Of a DNA stretch of 39,231 nucleotides, positions 25,187-39,000 are shown one piece after another. Numbering within the stretch: position 1 is the first letter of the stretch; each line of letters opens with the position of its first letter. This stretch comes from Verrucomicrobiota bacterium. GTDB lineage: Bacteria > Verrucomicrobiota > Verrucomicrobiia > Limisphaerales > VHCN01. The notes under the pieces are model-generated. The model was not told where the DNA came from and searched no databases. It worked only from the letters and a program-made list of their open reading frames with translations. The translations under genes and the position numbers were made by a program. The stretch lies in the NCBI GenBank assembly GCA_016871675.1, contig VHCN01000028.1:1-39231 (forward strand), given 5' to 3'.

Positions 25187-25336
25187 TCCGCGCGGCGCGT
25201 GGCGGTTCGAGATTCATCGTCCGGCGGCACGAACGAGTCCCGCCACACGGCCCGGCCAACCTCCACTTCGCGTCGCGCCACGCATCGCCACCAGTCTCCG
25301 CGTGACACGTCCTCGAGGCTCTGCTTCCATCGGCGC

Positions 25337-26014
25337 GTGCCATTGCTGGAGATCAACGGGCTGAAGAAATCGTTCGCGACGCCGGACGGCGGGACGCACT
25401 GCGTGGTCGACATCGGGGACTTCACGCTCGGCGAACGCGAGCAACTGGCGCTCAGCGGCGAGAGCGGTTCGGGAAAGACCACTTTCCTCAACCTGATCGC
25501 CGGCATCCTGACGCCCGACGCGGGAAGCATCCGGCTCAACGGCACCGACCTCGGCCCGTTGGCCGAGCGCGAGCGCGACCGCCTCCGCGCGACGTCCATC
25601 GGCTACATTTTCCAGACCTTCAACCTGCTGCAGGGCTACTCGGCGATCGAAAACGTGCTGCTCGGAATGTCCTTCGGCCCCGGCGCCGAACGGCCGTTCG
25701 CCGAAATGCTGCTGCGCCGCGCGGGACTCGCGGAAAAACTCCGGCACCTGCCGCGGCAGCTCTCCACCGGGCAGCAACAGCGGGTCGCGGTCGCGCGCGC
25801 GCTGGCCAACCGCCCCAAGCTCGTCCTCGCCGACGAACCCACCGGCAATCTCGACCACGCCAACGCGCGCGAGGCGCTGCGGCTCATCCGCGACATGTGC
25901 CACGAGAGCGGCGCCGCGCTCCTGCTCGTGAGCCACGACCACGAGGTGCTTTCGGCCTTCGACAAAGTGCAGGAACTCGCGAAGCTGAACCGGGCCGCGG
26001 TCGCAACCCAATGA
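25337..26014 (+). CDS. ABC transporter ATP-binding protein (MacB/LolD type)
   Basis: A 225-residue nucleotide-binding subunit with every canonical motif: Walker A GESGSGKT (41-48), Q-loop Gln93 in YIFQTFNLL, signature LSTGQQQR (142-149), Walker B LVLADEP with catalytic Glu167, D-loop NLDHANA and H-loop His200 in LLVSHD. The IFQTFNLL and TGNLD stretches place it in the MacB/LolD/FtsE group, whose partners are FtsX-type permeases that act mechanically across the envelope. GTG 25337 gives MPLLEINGLKKSF; the open frame before it lacks homology. Its TGA overlaps the permease ATG by 4 bp. It contrasts with the degenerate ATPase at 35205-35990 in this window. Confidence 0.95.
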   Translation: MPLLEINGLKKSFATPDGGTHCVVDIGDFTLGEREQLALSGESGSGKTTFLNLIAGILTPDAGSIRLNGTDLGPLAERERDRLRATSIGYIFQTFNLLQGYSAIENVLLGMSFGPGAERPFAEMLLRRAGLAEKLRHLPRQLSTGQQQRVAVARALANRPKLVLADEPTGNLDHANAREALRLIRDMCHESGAALLLVSHDHEVLSAFDKVQELAKLNRAAVATQ

Positions 26015-27213
26015 CACTCGTTCACATCGTCCTCCGCTCGCTGCGCCAGCACGCGCTTTCGACCTGCATCACCGCGGCGTCGATCGCGCTCGCCGGCGGG
26101 CTGCTCATGGCGGTGTGGACGGTGAAGGTCCGCTCGCAGGCGGCGTTCACTCAGATGCAGTCGGGCTTCGACGGCGTGCTCGGCCCTCGCAGCGCGCAGC
26201 TTCAGCTCGTCCTCAACTCCATCTTCCACCTCGACCAATCGCCCGGCACGATGGCGTGGAGCGATTACACGCAGATCAAGTCCAACGGCGCCGTCGCCCT
26301 CGCGTTGCCCATCACCGTCGGCGACAACTACCACGGCTTCCGGCTCGTCGGCACGCTCACGAACCTGTTCACCGACGTCGAATACGCGCCCGGTCGAAAG
26401 TATCGCGTCGCGGCCGGCGGACCCTTCCTCGCCGGGCACGCCGAGGCGGTCGTGGGAAGTTTCGTCGCGCAGCGGCTTGGGATGAAGGTGGGCGACACGT
26501 TCCACCCCTACCACGGGCTCATCTTCGACGAGAAGCAGCAGCACGCCGAAACATACGTGGTCACCGGCATCCTCGAGCCATCGAACACGCCCGCGGACCG
26601 CGTGATCTGGATTCCGCTCGAGGGCATCCAGAACATGAAGGGGCACGACGCCCGCACCGCCAGCGACGTGAGCGCGGTGCTGGTGAAACTCCGGGCCGCC
26701 CCCGCGGGACGCCAGCTCGACCTGCTTTACAATAAGCAGGGCAACCGCCTCACCTTCGCGTGGCCCGTCGCCGCGGTGATGGCGCAGCTGTTCGACCGGA
26801 TCGCGTGGTTCGACCGCGTGTTGGAGCTGGTCGCCATGCTCGTCGCGCTCGTAGCCACGGGTTCGGTGCTCGCGAGCATCTACAACTCGATGAACGAACG
26901 CCGGCGCGACATTGCCATCCTGCGCGCGCTCGGCGCCCGCGCCCGCACGATTTTCTGCACGGTGGTCCTCGAAGCCGCGGGCATCGCGGTGCTCGGCATG
27001 GCCGCGGGCTTCGCCGTGTATGCCGTCATCGCGCTTGGCGTCGCATCGGTGATTCGCGCACAGACCGGCGTCGTGCTTGAACCGCTCGCCTGGCATCCGG
27101 TGCAAGTGGTCGCACCGCTGGCGATGATCGGGTTGAGCGCGCTCGCCGGAATCGTCCCCGCGGCGAAGGCTTATCGAACGAATGTGGCGGACAACCTCGT
27201 GCCCGTGTCGTGA
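26011..27213 (+). CDS. ABC transporter permease, FtsX/MacB-like family
   Basis: A 400-residue permease with the MacB/LolC-type layout: an N-terminal helix (about 14-37, ITAASIALAGGLLMAVW), a long periplasmic domain (about 38-265), then three helices (about 268-292, 318-345 and 370-390) in the FtsX domain. NSMNERRRDIAILRALGARARTIF is the conserved cytoplasmic loop that couples to the ATPase, and AGIVPAAKAYRTNVADNLVPV is the usual C-terminus. The ATG overlaps the ATPase stop (ATGA). Such systems do not normally import; they extract lipoproteins, expel peptides or drugs, or drive periplasmic machines. The substrate is unknown; two lipoproteins encoded directly downstream are candidate partners. 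An inverted repeat starts immediately after its TGA. Confidence 0.92.
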   Translation: MTLVHIVLRSLRQHALSTCITAASIALAGGLLMAVWTVKVRSQAAFTQMQSGFDGVLGPRSAQLQLVLNSIFHLDQSPGTMAWSDYTQIKSNGAVALALPITVGDNYHGFRLVGTLTNLFTDVEYAPGRKYRVAAGGPFLAGHAEAVVGSFVAQRLGMKVGDTFHPYHGLIFDEKQQHAETYVVTGILEPSNTPADRVIWIPLEGIQNMKGHDARTASDVSAVLVKLRAAPAGRQLDLLYNKQGNRLTFAWPVAAVMAQLFDRIAWFDRVLELVAMLVALVATGSVLASIYNSMNERRRDIAILRALGARARTIFCTVVLEAAGIAVLGMAAGFAVYAVIALGVASVIRAQTGVVLEPLAWHPVQVVAPLAMIGLSALAGIVPAAKAYRTNVADNLVPVS

Positions 27214-32936: not shown

Positions 32937-33722
32937 ATGAAACCGCGGCCGCGATCACGCGTGCGCCCCCGCCCCCGGAGCGGCGCCGGACTGTGCCGCG
33001 CGCTCTCCAAACTCGGCATGTGCTCGCGGACTGAAGCCGTCGCTTTCATCACCGCCGGACGCGTGACCGTGAACGGCGCGACGTGCCTCGACCCCGCGCG
33101 CGAAGTGGACGCGCAGCGTGACCGAATCACGGTGGACGGCCAGCCCGCGCGACCACCGGCTCGCGCTTACTTCATGCTCAACAAGCCGCGTGGCCTCGTG
33201 ACCAGCGCGCGTGATGAGAAAGGCCGCGGGACGATCTTCGACTGCCTCAGGCGTGCGGAAGGTCCCCTGCCCCGCCACATTGCCGCCGTCGGCCGGCTGG
33301 ACATGGCGAGCGAAGGCCTGCTCCTGCTGACGAACGACACGCATTGGGCGGCGCGCATCACGGACCCTCGATCGCGCGTGCCGAAGACCTACCACGTCCA
33401 AGTGGACTGCATCGCCGGTGAAAAGCTTCTGGCGCGAATCACATCCGGCGTGCTGGCCGAAGGCGGGCAACTCGCCGCATCGCAGGCCTCGCTGCTGCGG
33501 CACGGACAACGAAACTCCTGGATCGAAATCGTCCTCGACGAAGGCCGCAACCGGCACATCCGCCGGATGCTGGCCGCGCTGGACGTGGGTGTGCTGCGCC
33601 TCGTGCGCGTCTCGATCGGCCCGGTCATGCTGGGCGACCTCGCGAAAGGACAAATGCGTGAACTCACGCAAGACGAAGTCCGTTCACTCGGCGGGCCGCC
33701 GCCTTGGCGCGACGGAGGCTAA
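32937..33722 (+). CDS. RluB/RsuA-family pseudouridine synthase
   Basis: A 261-residue enzyme that isomerises uridine in rRNA. After a basic leader (RPRSRVRPRPRSG) comes an S4 RNA-binding domain (LCRALSKLGMCSRTEAVAFITAGRVTVNG, 19-47), then the catalytic domain: YFMLNKPRGLVTS, VGRLDMASEGLLLLTND with catalytic Asp122, PKTYHVQV, LDEGRNRHIRRMLAALDVGVLRLVRVSIG. This set defines the RsuA/RluB/E/F group; which rRNA site it modifies is not resolvable by eye. ATG 32937 was chosen; a TTG 54 bp upstream also keeps the frame. Its last 4 bp overlap the convergent MCE gene. Confidence 0.93.
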   Translation: MKPRPRSRVRPRPRSGAGLCRALSKLGMCSRTEAVAFITAGRVTVNGATCLDPAREVDAQRDRITVDGQPARPPARAYFMLNKPRGLVTSARDEKGRGTIFDCLRRAEGPLPRHIAAVGRLDMASEGLLLLTNDTHWAARITDPRSRVPKTYHVQVDCIAGEKLLARITSGVLAEGGQLAASQASLLRHGQRNSWIEIVLDEGRNRHIRRMLAALDVGVLRLVRVSIGPVMLGDLAKGQMRELTQDEVRSLGGPPPWRDGG

Positions 33723-35191
33723 TCCTTCCGCGGCGGCAGGCCCGGTTGCAGTCCGGGTTTCGGCGGGGGCGACGACGCCTTCGGCGGCGTGTTCGTCCTG
33801 AACGCGGAGCGCAACAGCCAGTGGCGCTTGAGCCCCTGGAGCAGTTCGTCCGTGTGCATGATCGTGTCTGAAATCGACTTCACGATGTTCGTGTTCGCAT
33901 CCACCTGCCGGTGAAGGTTCGCCGTAATGCCGGCCAGGCTGTCGAGGGACTTGCTGAGTTCGAGCACGATGGCGGCAAGGTTGGTGTCGGCAGTCTTCAT
34001 GAGGCCGCGCGCATCGCCGAGCGTTGCGTCCACCTTCGCCATCGTGTTCGTGGCGGAACCGGCGATGGTCGTCATGGTGTTGGTCGTCGTGACCGTCAGC
34101 GTGCCGAGGCTGTTGGTGACGGACGCGAGGGTCGCGCGCGCCGTGGCGAGTGTGGTTTCGATCTGGCGGTTGAGGTCCTGGGTGATGAGCCACTCGCCGA
34201 GAGAGCCCTGCGCGTTGGTGAGATTGCCCGTGATGCGGCCGACGTTCCGCACGGCGGGCTGGGCGTCGGCGAGGAGGTTGGAGGCCTGGTTCACGAGCGG
34301 CCGCGCCGTGGTGATGAAGGTGTTCACGTTGGAGAGCATCGTGTGTGACGTGTCGAGGATGCCGGCGATCTGGTTCGTCAACGCGAGCATGACCGGCAGG
34401 GCGTCCTTCACGCGCTTCGTCACGTCCTCAATCGCCTCGGCGAGCACGACCGGCTCGCGCGCGAAAATGAAAACCTTGGACTCCGTCTTCCCGCGGCCAG
34501 TGACGGGGACGTAGTAGTTGTAGTATCCCGCGTTGAAGAATCGCGCGTCGAACCACGCATATTTCGGGCGGGACTCCGCCCGGGCGTAGCGGTCGAACAC
34601 GCTGGCCTTGCCTACGCCCGCCGCCTCGAGCGCGGCGAGCGAATTGGTTTCCACGTTGTTCGCAGCCTCGGCAAGTGCCCGCTCGCCGGCGAAGTAGTTC
34701 GTGGCGTAGACATACTGGCCGGGTTTGCTGCGAAGCACGTTCAGCGGCACTTCGGTCGCGTTATGAAACACGAACATCGAGAACCCGTTCGTCCCCTTGG
34801 TCAACTCGATGTAGCGGCTTCCGAATACTCCCGACGAGCCCACGACCGCGACGGTTCCTTCGGTCCAGACGTAGCCGATGTTCTCGCCGCGCACCGTGAA
34901 TTCGACGTAGACATTCCAGCCCGCCTCCGGTTTCTCGGGCGCGATGCGGGTGATCTCCCCGACCTCAAAGCCCATCATCTTCACCGTGTCCCCGACCTTG
35001 AGCCCCGCGCCGCTCCGCAGGTAAGTGTAGTAGCTGACCTTCGTGTCGAACCACCCTTTGCGCGCGGCCGTGTGATACACGTAGTAGGAAAACCCCGCGA
35101 GCAGAAGCAGCGTCGCGAGGCCGACGAAGAAGCCCACCGCGCGCTCCACGCGGCCGAGCCGCGTCCGAAGTTGGGGGGTCAAGTCCTGCAT
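33719..35191 (-). CDS. MCE/MlaD family lipid-transport protein
   Basis: A 490-residue substrate-binding component of an MCE transporter. It has a single N-terminal membrane helix (about 19-40), then the MCE domain (about 50-131) with LRSGAGLKVGDTVKMMGFEVGEI and GTVAVVGSSGVFGSRYIEL. A Tyr-rich middle section follows (RFFNAGYYNYYVPVTG near 235-250). A long C-terminal region (about 280-460) is rich in Asn/Thr/Ala with heptad-like hydrophobic spacing, consistent with helical or coiled tunnel segments as in longer MCE proteins. It ends in a Pro/Lys tail (PPKASSPPPKPGLQPGLPP). E. coli MlaD has 183 residues, so this is a large form. It is the last gene of the minus-strand order permease - ATPase - MCE, 13 bp after the ATPase. 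Confidence 0.9.
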   Translation of the reverse strand: MQDLTPQLRTRLGRVERAVGFFVGLATLLLLAGFSYYVYHTAARKGWFDTKVSYYTYLRSGAGLKVGDTVKMMGFEVGEITRIAPEKPEAGWNVYVEFTVRGENIGYVWTEGTVAVVGSSGVFGSRYIELTKGTNGFSMFVFHNATEVPLNVLRSKPGQYVYATNYFAGERALAEAANNVETNSLAALEAAGVGKASVFDRYARAESRPKYAWFDARFFNAGYYNYYVPVTGRGKTESKVFIFAREPVVLAEAIEDVTKRVKDALPVMLALTNQIAGILDTSHTMLSNVNTFITTARPLVNQASNLLADAQPAVRNVGRITGNLTNAQGSLGEWLITQDLNRQIETTLATARATLASVTNSLGTLTVTTTNTMTTIAGSATNTMAKVDATLGDARGLMKTADTNLAAIVLELSKSLDSLAGITANLHRQVDANTNIVKSISDTIMHTDELLQGLKRHWLLRSAFRTNTPPKASSPPPKPGLQPGLPPRKD

Positions 35192-35204: not shown

Positions 35205-35990
35205 CTACCCCGCTGCCATCAATTCGCGCAAGGCCGGCTCGCGGGTGGCGTCGAGCGTGTCGCGTCCTCCCAGCGCCTGCCAGCGGCCTTCCTTGATCAT
35301 TGCGAACTGCCCGCCCTCCGACCGCCACGGGCAGAAATCATCCACCGCCACGGCGATCGTCAGCGGTTGGCCGTCGAGGAAAGGATGCCCCGCCGCGAGG
35401 ACTGCGAGCAACTCGATCCACCATGCCGTCTGCCGCCAGTCCAGTCCGCCGAGTGGATTGTCGAGGAGCAGCACTTCGGGCTTCAAAGCCAGCGCGCGGG
35501 CCAGCGCCGCCCGTTGCCGCGATGGTCGCCCGATGCGTGACGGCAGTGCGTCCGCCATATGAGTCAGCCCGAGGAGTTCGAGCACCTCGGCGGAAGCCGT
35601 CGCGGCGGCGGCCGCGTCGAGGTTTCGGTGGTATCCGAGCGCGAGTGCGACATTCTCGGAGACCGTCAGGTGATGAAACAACCGGCCGCCATTCTCGAAC
35701 ACCAGCCCCACGCGCAGTCGTTGCCGGACCAACTCGTCCTCATCGAGAACCTCGACGTTCCGGCCAAATAGAAAATAGGCGCCCGCCTCGGGCGGCACCA
35801 AACCCGCCATGGTTGCAAGCAGGTCGCTCTTGCCCGACCACGTTCCACCGCCCACGACCCACCACTCGCCGCGCGCGAGTTGCCAGTCCACGCCCTCGAC
35901 GGCGCGCCCGCCCTCGACGGGCGGCGGCCGCACCGTCACTCCTTTGAGCTCGACGAGCACCTCTCTGAGGATCTGGGTGGTCGCGGCCAT
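35205..35990 (-). CDS. MlaF-like ABC ATPase with degenerate catalytic motifs
   Basis: A 261-residue ABC-fold protein in the MlaF position of the operon. Walker A is intact (GGTWSGKS, 48-55) and Walker B keeps its Asp (LLLD177), but the following catalytic Glu is Asn178 (LLLDNP). The Q-loop Gln is Glu99 (LVFENGG), the LSGGQ signature is IGRPS (153-157, then RQRAALARAL), and the H-loop His is absent (AVAVDDF, 213-219). The surrounding scaffold (LFHHLTVSENVAL, AALARALALKPEVLLLDNPLGGLD) stays close to MlaF, and the frame is undamaged, so this looks like purifying selection on an altered protein, not decay. It probably still binds nucleotide; hydrolysis is doubtful. It starts 1 bp after the permease stop. 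Confidence 0.88.
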   Translation of the reverse strand: MAATTQILREVLVELKGVTVRPPPVEGGRAVEGVDWQLARGEWWVVGGGTWSGKSDLLATMAGLVPPEAGAYFLFGRNVEVLDEDELVRQRLRVGLVFENGGRLFHHLTVSENVALALGYHRNLDAAAAATASAEVLELLGLTHMADALPSRIGRPSRQRAALARALALKPEVLLLDNPLGGLDWRQTAWWIELLAVLAAGHPFLDGQPLTIAVAVDDFCPWRSEGGQFAMIKEGRWQALGGRDTLDATREPALRELMAAG

Positions 35991-35991
35991 T

Positions 35992-36852
35992 TCACATCAC
36001 GAGGTAGACGAGGATGAACATCGCGTCGAGCAGCACGCACGCCACGACGCTGTGCAACACCGCGCGCGTCGTCGCGAAGGAGACTTCCTCCAGCCGGAGC
36101 GGTTGCGCAAGGCCCTGGTAGCAGCTCACGATGGAGATCACCACGCCGAAGCCGACCGTCTTGAGCGCGAGGAGCGCGAAGTCCTCCCACATCAGCGCGC
36201 CCGCGAGCTGCCGGAAGTAATCCGCGGGCAGGATCGGCACGTCCTGGATGAACGCAAACACGTAGCCGCTGATCACCGCCGCGATGATGAGATACATGGT
36301 GAGCGAGAAAATCCCCGCCGCCATCCCGATCATCCGCGGGACCACGAGGTAATGCACCGGATCGATGCCGAGCGCCTCGAGCGCCTCGACCTCGCCATGC
36401 GCGCGCCGGTTGCCAAGCTCGATCACGGTCGCCGTGCCCACACGCGCCAGCACCAGCAGCGCGGCCGCGAGCGGTCCGAGTTCGCGGACCACCACCGTGA
36501 CCATCACCTTGCCGAGATACTCCTGTGCGCCGATTTGCTGAAGGAACGCGACGGTCTGCCCGATGATCACAAACCCCAAGGCCGCGCCGATGAACAGCAC
36601 CACCGGAAGGAGGCGCACGCCCGCACGGCTTATCTCCGACCGGATCATCGGGCGCATCACGTGTGAGGCGACGTTGAACTTCGTCACCGCCACGCCCAGC
36701 GTGATGAGCGCAAACGCCCCGAGCCCCTGCGCCGTGAGCAGGAACCGCAGCAGCATCCGCCCCGTGTAGTTGAGATACCCGCGCGGCAGCGGAGCTTCCA
36801 TGATGGTCTGCACGTTTCGCAGCAACTGTGTTGTCGCCTCCCGCGCTTCCAT
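35992..36852 (-). CDS. mlaE: MlaE family ABC permease
   Basis: The 286-residue membrane subunit of the MCE transporter. MlaE-family features: an N-terminal amphipathic part, about five or six hydrophobic helices (LITLGVAVTKF; LLPVVLFIGAALGFVIIGQT; LGPLAAALLVLARVGTA; MYLIIAAVISGYVFAFI; VGFGVVISIVSCY; VACVLLDAMFILVYLVM) and the conserved coupling loop GEVEALEALGIDPVHYLVVPRMIG. The loop normally docks onto the ATPase, and here it keeps the usual sequence although the ATPase is degenerate. First gene of the minus-strand MCE operon; 147 bp separate it from the divergent gene at 37000. The system should move phospholipid between inner and outer membranes; direction is unknown. Confidence 0.95.
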   Translation of the reverse strand: MEAREATTQLLRNVQTIMEAPLPRGYLNYTGRMLLRFLLTAQGLGAFALITLGVAVTKFNVASHVMRPMIRSEISRAGVRLLPVVLFIGAALGFVIIGQTVAFLQQIGAQEYLGKVMVTVVVRELGPLAAALLVLARVGTATVIELGNRRAHGEVEALEALGIDPVHYLVVPRMIGMAAGIFSLTMYLIIAAVISGYVFAFIQDVPILPADYFRQLAGALMWEDFALLALKTVGFGVVISIVSCYQGLAQPLRLEEVSFATTRAVLHSVVACVLLDAMFILVYLVM

Positions 36853-36999: not shown

Positions 37000-39000
37000 A
37001 TGTCTCTCGCCCGCACCCTTGCCGCCTCGGTCCTTCTCGCACTCGCAGCCTCCGCGCAGTCCCCTTCGCTTCCACCCGGCGTGAACAACTCGCAGAAGCC
37101 CGGCGATGCGCCGCCGTCGCCGCAGGAGTCGCTCGCGAAGATCACCCTGCCGCCGGGATTTCGCGCCCAGCTCTTCGCCGCGGAGCCGGACGTGATGCAG
37201 CCCATCGCCATTGAGTTCGACGATCGCGGGCGGCTGTGGGTGGCCGAGAACTACGCATACCCGCAATGGAACAAGACCAATGGCGTCAGCAACTCAACGC
37301 CCGACCGCATCCTGATTCTCAATGACCGCGACGGGGACGGGCGCTTCGACGAGCGCAAGGTTTTCTTCGACAAAGGCCGCCTCATCACAAGCGTGCTGCC
37401 CGGCTTCGGCGGTGTGTGGGTCTTGTCGCTGCCCGAGTTGCTGTTCTTCCCCGACGCGAACGGCGACGACATCCCCGACGGCCCGCCGGTCGTGCACCTG
37501 GACGGCTGGACGCCGAATGCGCGGCACAACTTCGTCAACGGCCTCGCGTGGGGTCCCGACGGCTGGCTCTACGGTCGCCACGGCATCACGACAAATTCCT
37601 TCGTCGGCAAGCCCGGCGCGCCCGACAGCGAGCGCGTGCTGCTCAACTGCTCCATCTGGCGCTATCACCCGGTGACGAGGAAGTTCGAGGTCGTCTGCCG
37701 CGGCACAACGAACCCGTGGGGCCTCGACTGGGACGAAAACGGGCAGGCGTTCTTCTCGAACAACGTCATCGGCCACTTCTGGCACGTGATCCCCGGCGCT
37801 TACTACAAGCGCATGTTCGGCGAGCACTTCAACCCGCACCTCTACGAACTGATGGAGAGCTGCTCCGATCACCTGCACTGGTCGGGCGCGAAGTGGCAGG
37901 ACAGCCGCACCGGCGCCGAGCACGCCTCGCTCGGCGGCGGTCATTCGCATTGCGGGCTGATGATTTATCTCGGCGACAACTTCCCGCGCGAGTGGCGTGG
38001 CCGCCCGTTCATCGGGAACATCCACGGCAACCGCACGCTGTTCGACACCATCGAGCGAAAGGGCTCGGGCTATGCCGCGAAGCACGGCGGAAACTTCCTG
38101 ATGGCAAACGACCCGTGGTTCCGCTCGACCGCGCAATACTACGGGCCCGACGGCGGCGTGTTCGTGACCGATTGGAGCGACCTCGGCGAATGTCACGACC
38201 ACGACGGCTCGCATCGCAGCAGCGGCCGCATCTACAAAATCACCTACGGCACGCCCAAGCCGGTCAGGAACCTCGACCTCGCGAAGCAGTCCGACGCCGA
38301 CCTCATCAAGTTGCTCACCCACGCGAACGAGTGGCAGCGCCGTCACGCGCAGCGACTTCTGCAAGAACGCGCCGCTGCCGGCAAACTGGCGAAGGCCACG
38401 TCCGCCGCGCTGCTCAAGTCGCTCAACAACGCGGCTTCGCGCCACGACAGGCTCCGCGCACTCTGGGCGTGCTGGGTCACGGGGGCCATCGCGAAGGACG
38501 AAGCCGGCAAACTCCTCGCGAGCAAGGACGAGCACGAACGCTGGTGGGCCGTGCGATTGCTGACCGAGGACGAAGCGTCACACTTTTCATCCGCACACCC
38601 CTCACCCGCCCTTCGGGCACCCTCTCCCCTCGTCGGACGAGGGGAGAGGGTTGGGGTGAGGGGTGACTCAGAAGCACTAGCTGTGGGCGCGGGATCCCTG
38701 ACACTTCCTCCGTCGCTGCTCTTGAAATTTACGGCGATGGCCAAGGACGATCCATCTCCATTCGTCCGACTCGGCCTCGCCTCCGCGCTGCAACGCCTCA
38801 AGCTCGCCGACCGCTGGCCCATCGCCGAAGCCTTGCTCTCGCACGCCGGGGACGCCACCGACAAGGACCTCCCGCTGCTGACGTGGTATGGCATCGAGCC
38901 CGCCGTCGCCGCCGACCCGGCCAAGGCCGCGCTGCTGCTCGCCAAGTGCCAGGTGCCGCAAGTGCGCCAGTTCATAACGCGCCGGCTTGCCGCAAAGTAA
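37000..39000 (+). CDS. PVC-type membrane-bound dehydrogenase domain protein with HEAT repeats, no heme motif
   Basis: A 666-residue exported protein. Signal peptide 1-19 ([10 protein letters not shown]). The sorbosone/glucose-dehydrogenase-like beta-propeller spans about 45-425: [109 protein letters not shown]-like [13 protein letters not shown]. HEAT-like repeats follow (about 440-666). Many relatives carry a C-terminal CxxCH cytochrome domain after RRLA; this protein stops exactly there, so it is a short form or truncated. An in-frame insertion at about 527-565 contains a 70-bp palindrome. The paralogue at 9778-10264 is a wreck. Substrate unknown; sugar or polyol oxidation is the family guess. 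Confidence 0.88.
   Translation: [666 protein letters not shown]
38596..38665. repeat. 70-bp compound palindrome inserted in frame in a coding region
   Basis: Outer arms CACCCCTCACCC (38596-38607) / GGGTGAGGGGTG (38654-38665), perfect over 12 bp. Inner arms ACCCTCTCCCCTCGTC (38619-38634) / GACGAGGGGAGAGGGT (38636-38651), perfect over 16 bp around one base. Between them on the left is a mini-hairpin GCCC-TTC-GGGC (38608-38618); on the right only TG. The whole could fold as a three-way cruciform. Sequences of the CCCTCTCCCC...GGGGAGAGGG type are known to me as widespread bacterial intergenic palindromes; here it is translated. Confidence 0.9.

Follow-up and report, generated by a model that had tools for sequence, protein, structure and literature searches.

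Degenerate MlaF-like proteins in MlaE–MCE operons of Limisphaerales and a putative lipid conduit independent of ATP hydrolysis

Can an MlaE-type permease remain in use when the ATPase encoded beside it has lost its catalytic motifs? This question is raised by a three-gene operon on the minus strand of the stretch of DNA analysed here (39,231 nucleotides from a Verrucomicrobiota bacterium, hereafter the window). Its first gene (35992–36852) encodes a permease of 286 aa that Pfam assigns to MlaE (PF02405, 177.7 bits against a cut-off of 22.5). MlaE is the sole Pfam match of this inner-membrane protein, which does not belong with PqiA/LetA. After 1 bp follows the gene for a nucleotide-binding domain (NBD) protein of 261 aa (35205–35990), whose frame is open from ATG to TAG and which matches ABC_tran (PF00005, 69 bits). 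A further 13 bp separate it from the gene for a long, MlaD-like MCE protein of 490 aa (33719–35191; PF02470, 49.1 bits against a cut-off of 25.1). A sequence-only reading of the window had proposed an intact frame with an MlaF-like scaffold between an MlaE permease and a large MCE protein, and all of these elements were recovered. The order permease–NBD–MCE is kept in nearly all loci examined across the order Limisphaerales, which we take to be Verrucomicrobia subdivision 3; the few exceptions are loci at contig ends or without a detected neighbour. No gene for MlaB, MlaC or MlaA was seen adjoining the window operon.

Motifs and fold of the nucleotide-binding subunit

The AlphaFold model of the window NBD is of high confidence (pLDDT 94, pTM 0.91), and its top structural match is Escherichia coli MlaF (6xbd_I, Z 29.6 over 243 residues). 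The MlaF fold is thus present, and the coupling helix of the permease, on which it would dock, is conserved. In an ABC site, Walker A, Walker B, the Q-loop and the H-loop come from one chain and the signature from its partner. Of the full set of motifs, the window protein keeps only Walker A (GGTWSGKS, residues 48–55; 35826–35849, minus strand, as are all features of the operon) and the Walker B Asp177, which is followed by Asn178 in place of the catalytic Glu (35457–35462). The Q-loop Gln is replaced by Glu99 (35694–35696), and IGRPS occupies the signature position, where LSGGM/Q is expected (residues 153–157; 35520–35534). Asp217 stands at the H-loop position (35340–35342), as placed by alignment to the H-loop His of the window genome's own canonical MlaFs. 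The five motif states described in the sequence-only reading, namely a perfect Walker A and the loss of Gln, signature, Glu and His, are therefore all borne out.

The chain that lacks the signature also lacks the Glu, so that neither homodimerization nor pairing with a canonical chain can give a complete canonical site. We favour the reading, at a probability of about 0.6, that the protein is a pseudo-ATPase docked on the MlaE permease of a lipid conduit that would be independent of ATP hydrolysis and probably passive.

Relatives and selection across the order

Relatives of the window NBD were retrieved from 233 of 320 Limisphaerales genomes (match E ≤ 1e-27), most of the genomes surveyed being drafts from metagenomes. 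Motifs were compared in 130 relatives, some of them from beyond the order but within its class. Walker A is kept as GK[S/T] in 122 of them and K54 in 124, and the Walker B Asp is found in 129. The Gly pair of the signature is absent from every relative, while the Q-loop Gln (4/130), the catalytic Glu (8/130, with Asn in 88) and the H-loop His (6/130) are rare. None of these four catalytic motifs is present in 112 relatives, and no relative has more than one. A second collection gave the same picture: an NBD was within reach at 79 of 80 loci, all 79 belonged to the same degenerate family, and K54 (78/79) and Glu178 (3/79) were distributed alike. The alignment of homologues shows a loss that is lineage-wide, and the 233 genomes together with the 79 loci rule out an assembly or sequencing error as well as a lone outlier.

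Variability among the 130 relatives is very low at G53, K54 and D177 (3rd to 7th percentile), while the catalytic positions lie near the middle, like ordinary sites. Several other residues are near-invariant and specific to the clade (W36, W44, Y120, W190 and W222). In 35 close pairs, the dN/dS of the NBD was approximately 0.07–0.39 by a simple pairwise estimate. The gene is under purifying selection and has not decayed to noise. It might be argued that its function is gone and that it is on its way to being lost, since it evolves faster than the permease (about twice the dN/dS) and is absent in one genus; since frames are intact throughout the order, selection is purifying and some invariant residues are specific to the clade, we find this hardly credible.

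The strong conservation of the Walker A Lys and Walker B Asp in the order, set against variable catalytic sites, is what would be expected if ATP binding and release without hydrolysis gated the permease, the NBD dimer opening and closing the conduit according to the level of ATP or of another ligand. Retention of the coupling helix fits as well. Gating nevertheless seems unlikely to us, as all 130 relatives lack the signature that would close over the opposite ATP, and a sister clade without Walker A still has the operon.

An acidic residue replaces the Q-loop Gln at position 99 in 86 of 130 relatives and the H-loop His at position 217 in 90, and these replacements appear less than random. 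No clear pairing of either residue with R155 was seen. Such residues might form an unusual active site, residue 99 or 217 serving as the base, for instance, and the NBD would then hydrolyse ATP after all. However, variability at both positions is close to that of an average site, the signature is lost too, and Walker A is missing from the sister clade, which makes this highly improbable. For the pseudo-ATPase that we prefer, the pattern across the family predicts a subunit that binds nucleotide but does not hydrolyse it, as the sequence-only reading had suggested; that prediction comes from sequence and comparison.

Canonical paralogues and loss of the NBD

Two canonical MlaF genes were found elsewhere in the window genome, each after a further MlaE gene and in an MlaE operon of its own. 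At least one additional MlaE, with a higher and canonical score, accompanied the MlaE of the decayed clade in 34 of 36 genomes tested. All five motifs were present in 32 of 32 canonical MlaFs, drawn from the two loci of the window genome and from 30 fetched loci of related genomes. The permeases are likewise distinct: a midpoint-rooted tree of 106 MlaE sequences separates 40 canonical proteins from the 66 others with support of 100/99, the window permease lying with the latter, and the coupling helices differ between the two clades. One divergent locus (L213), in which Gln and Glu are kept and the signature is lost, sits on a long branch at the base of the decayed clade in this tree.

The canonical pairs of the window genome, and the canonical-scoring MlaE in 34 of 36 genomes, would provide the material for a canonical MlaF that pairs with or replaces the degenerate NBD and powers the complex, close to the asymmetric partner ATPase envisaged in the sequence-only reading. 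Such an arrangement is disfavoured and, in our judgement, quite improbable: with the signature and the Glu missing in one chain, both composite sites of the heterodimer would be incomplete, the coupling helices of the two permease clades are unlike, the two canonical MlaFs of the genome belong to MlaE operons of their own, and one genus with a related operon has neither a second MlaE nor a recognizable MlaF.

In this genus (g138, genomes G346 and G373; class and genus labels of the compared genomes are those of the search tool), the MCE gene directly follows MlaE with no NBD gene between them, and a single MlaE was found by the search of each genome. We considered whether the NBD is encoded elsewhere in G346 and G373 and rejected this, as searches that used either a close NBD or canonical MlaF as query returned only background: no canonical MlaF orthologue was found (best 117–123 bits, against 208–536 for true ones) and no degenerate NBD orthologue (best 72–74 bits, against 200–463). 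The permease has changed along with the gene loss. At NBD-bearing loci, the coupling-helix segment (AHGEVEALEALGIDPVHYLVVPR in the window, permease residues 151–173; 36334–36402) is near-invariant and more conserved than the remainder of the permease, with a median of 14 of 15 positions matching the clade consensus. In the two g138 genomes, the matches fall to 0, the helix being deleted, and 4 of 15, while the rest of the permease still matches the clade consensus at 55–60% of positions. The loss of the NBD in g138, recorded in two draft genomes, probably happened once; being confined to one genus, the NBD-less state may have a history of its own.

Another class of the phylum, perhaps Kiritimatiellia, carries between MlaE and MCE a gene whose product lacks Walker A and mostly has a weak ABC_tran match; profile comparison aligns it with the window family (E 1.3e-24). 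The pseudo-ATPase of the sequence-only reading stands as far as the motif loss is concerned, and the decay goes beyond that description, reaching loss of Walker A and loss of the gene. In the class without Walker A, the next gene after that for MCE appears to encode a TPR-like repeat protein (L231, L234, L236, L240, L241; L232, L237, L248), and in some genomes this protein is apparently fused to the MCE protein.

A candidate conduit without ATP hydrolysis

In these environmental bacteria, hundreds of relatives with an ATPase that is dead by its sequence, together with one lineage that lacks the gene, suggest that lipids are moved without ATP hydrolysis. In the mechanism that we propose, the MlaF-derived NBD would still fold and probably bind ATP but could not complete a canonical hydrolysis site, and it would have been retained to clamp the coupling helices of the paralogous MlaE, in a structural or regulatory role. 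MlaE and the long MCE protein would most likely form an envelope-spanning phospholipid conduit in which a lipid gradient, and not ATP hydrolysis, drives the flow, possibly toward the outer membrane. This passive conduit would work beside the normal, ATP-driven MlaEF of the same cell. Outside the coupling loop, no new conserved charge was found in the membrane helices of the permease, which gives no support to proton-motive coupling. We put just short of even odds on a broader proposal, in which uncoupling from ATP extends across the phylum and stepwise decay of the ATPase leaves an ABC-derived permease that serves as a lipid channel between the membranes, passive and perhaps anterograde, alongside the canonical, ATP-driven Mla of the cell. 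Loss of the catalytic motifs would have come first; Walker A would then have been lost in one branch, and the whole gene, together with the coupling helix of the permease, in another.

Several observations run counter to this scheme. Conservation of Walker A within the order would be odd for a purely structural part, and the Mla system of E. coli requires ATP hydrolysis in vivo. The confinement of the NBD-less state to one genus and the acidic residues at the Q- and H-loop positions also count against it. On the supporting side there are precedents: the E. coli MlaF variants K47A, in Walker A, and E170Q do not complement (PMC7367683), and transfer of lipid from MlaD to MlaC has been reported to be independent of ATP, with ATP hydrolysis reported to prevent it (PMC10212509). 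The contact with MlaF is mediated by the coupling helix of MlaE (PMC7790496).

In the window MCE protein, a TM helix and a single MCE domain are accompanied by approximately 200 residues predicted to be helical, a stretch that would in principle be long enough to span the periplasm. Confidence in the model of this protein is modest (pLDDT 74), so that a needle shape would rest on the helix prediction only. A C-terminal motif, GLKRHWLLRSAF, at residues ~448–464 was detected with a simple pattern in 110 of 134 MCE proteins of the clade, among them those of the NBD-less genus and some from the class without Walker A. It is a possible contact at the outer-membrane end.

The MlaFEDB/MlaEFD systems of E. 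coli, Acinetobacter and Veillonella resemble the window operon in the MlaE permease, the MlaF-fold NBD (6xbd_I), the MCE protein and the order E–F–D, and the long MlaD described for Veillonella is like the long MCE protein found here (PMC10665443). They differ in that the window NBD lacks the Q-loop Gln, the signature, the catalytic Glu and the H-loop His, and in that the window MlaE falls in a separate clade. MceG (Mkl) of the mycobacterial Mce1 system shares the NBD fold (8fed is among the top matches) and an MCE partner, but is treated as the ATP-coupling subunit, whereas the window NBD is without catalytic motifs. The Pqi and Let systems are MCE systems without an ATPase, as in the NBD-less state (PMC12436622, PMC10897342); their inner-membrane proteins are PqiA and LetA and not MlaE, while in the present case the permease is an ABC protein of the MlaE type and its ATPase has decayed or disappeared. 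The heterodimeric ABC proteins TmrAB, TAP and CFTR also have a non-catalytic nucleotide site but keep one complete site. In such degenerate-site heterodimers the chain without Glu keeps the signature; in the family described here the Gly pair is gone from all 130 relatives, and no complete canonical site is possible. A bacteria-wide survey of Mla published in 2023 notes MlaDE clusters and uncertain MlaF annotation and, in the section consulted, makes no mention of a degenerate MlaF (PMC10665443). Our search of the literature, largely outside subscription journals, found no report on a degenerate MlaF, an MlaE clade with pseudo-ATPases or an MlaE without an ATPase.

The way in which phospholipids get to the outer membrane is debated, as is the need of MCE systems for energy in this step. 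The clade offers natural Mla-like transporters with an apparently dead ATPase or with none, beside normal ones in the same phylum and mostly in the same cells, which makes ATP-independent lipid transfer directly testable. It would be a rare case of an ABC permease apparently outlasting its own motor.

Two further features of the window lie outside the operon. Positions 25199–27213 (plus strand) encode an ordinary ABC pair, in which a permease accompanies a MacB/LolD-like ATPase whose motifs are nearly normal. A putative gene for a membrane-bound dehydrogenase (37000–39000, plus strand) contains in its open frame a palindromic repeat (ACCCTCTCCCCTCGT..GGACGAGGGGAGAGGGT, 38619–38663); among the matches listed, this repeat has at least 10 copies in the genome within three mismatches, against 0 for a reversed control.
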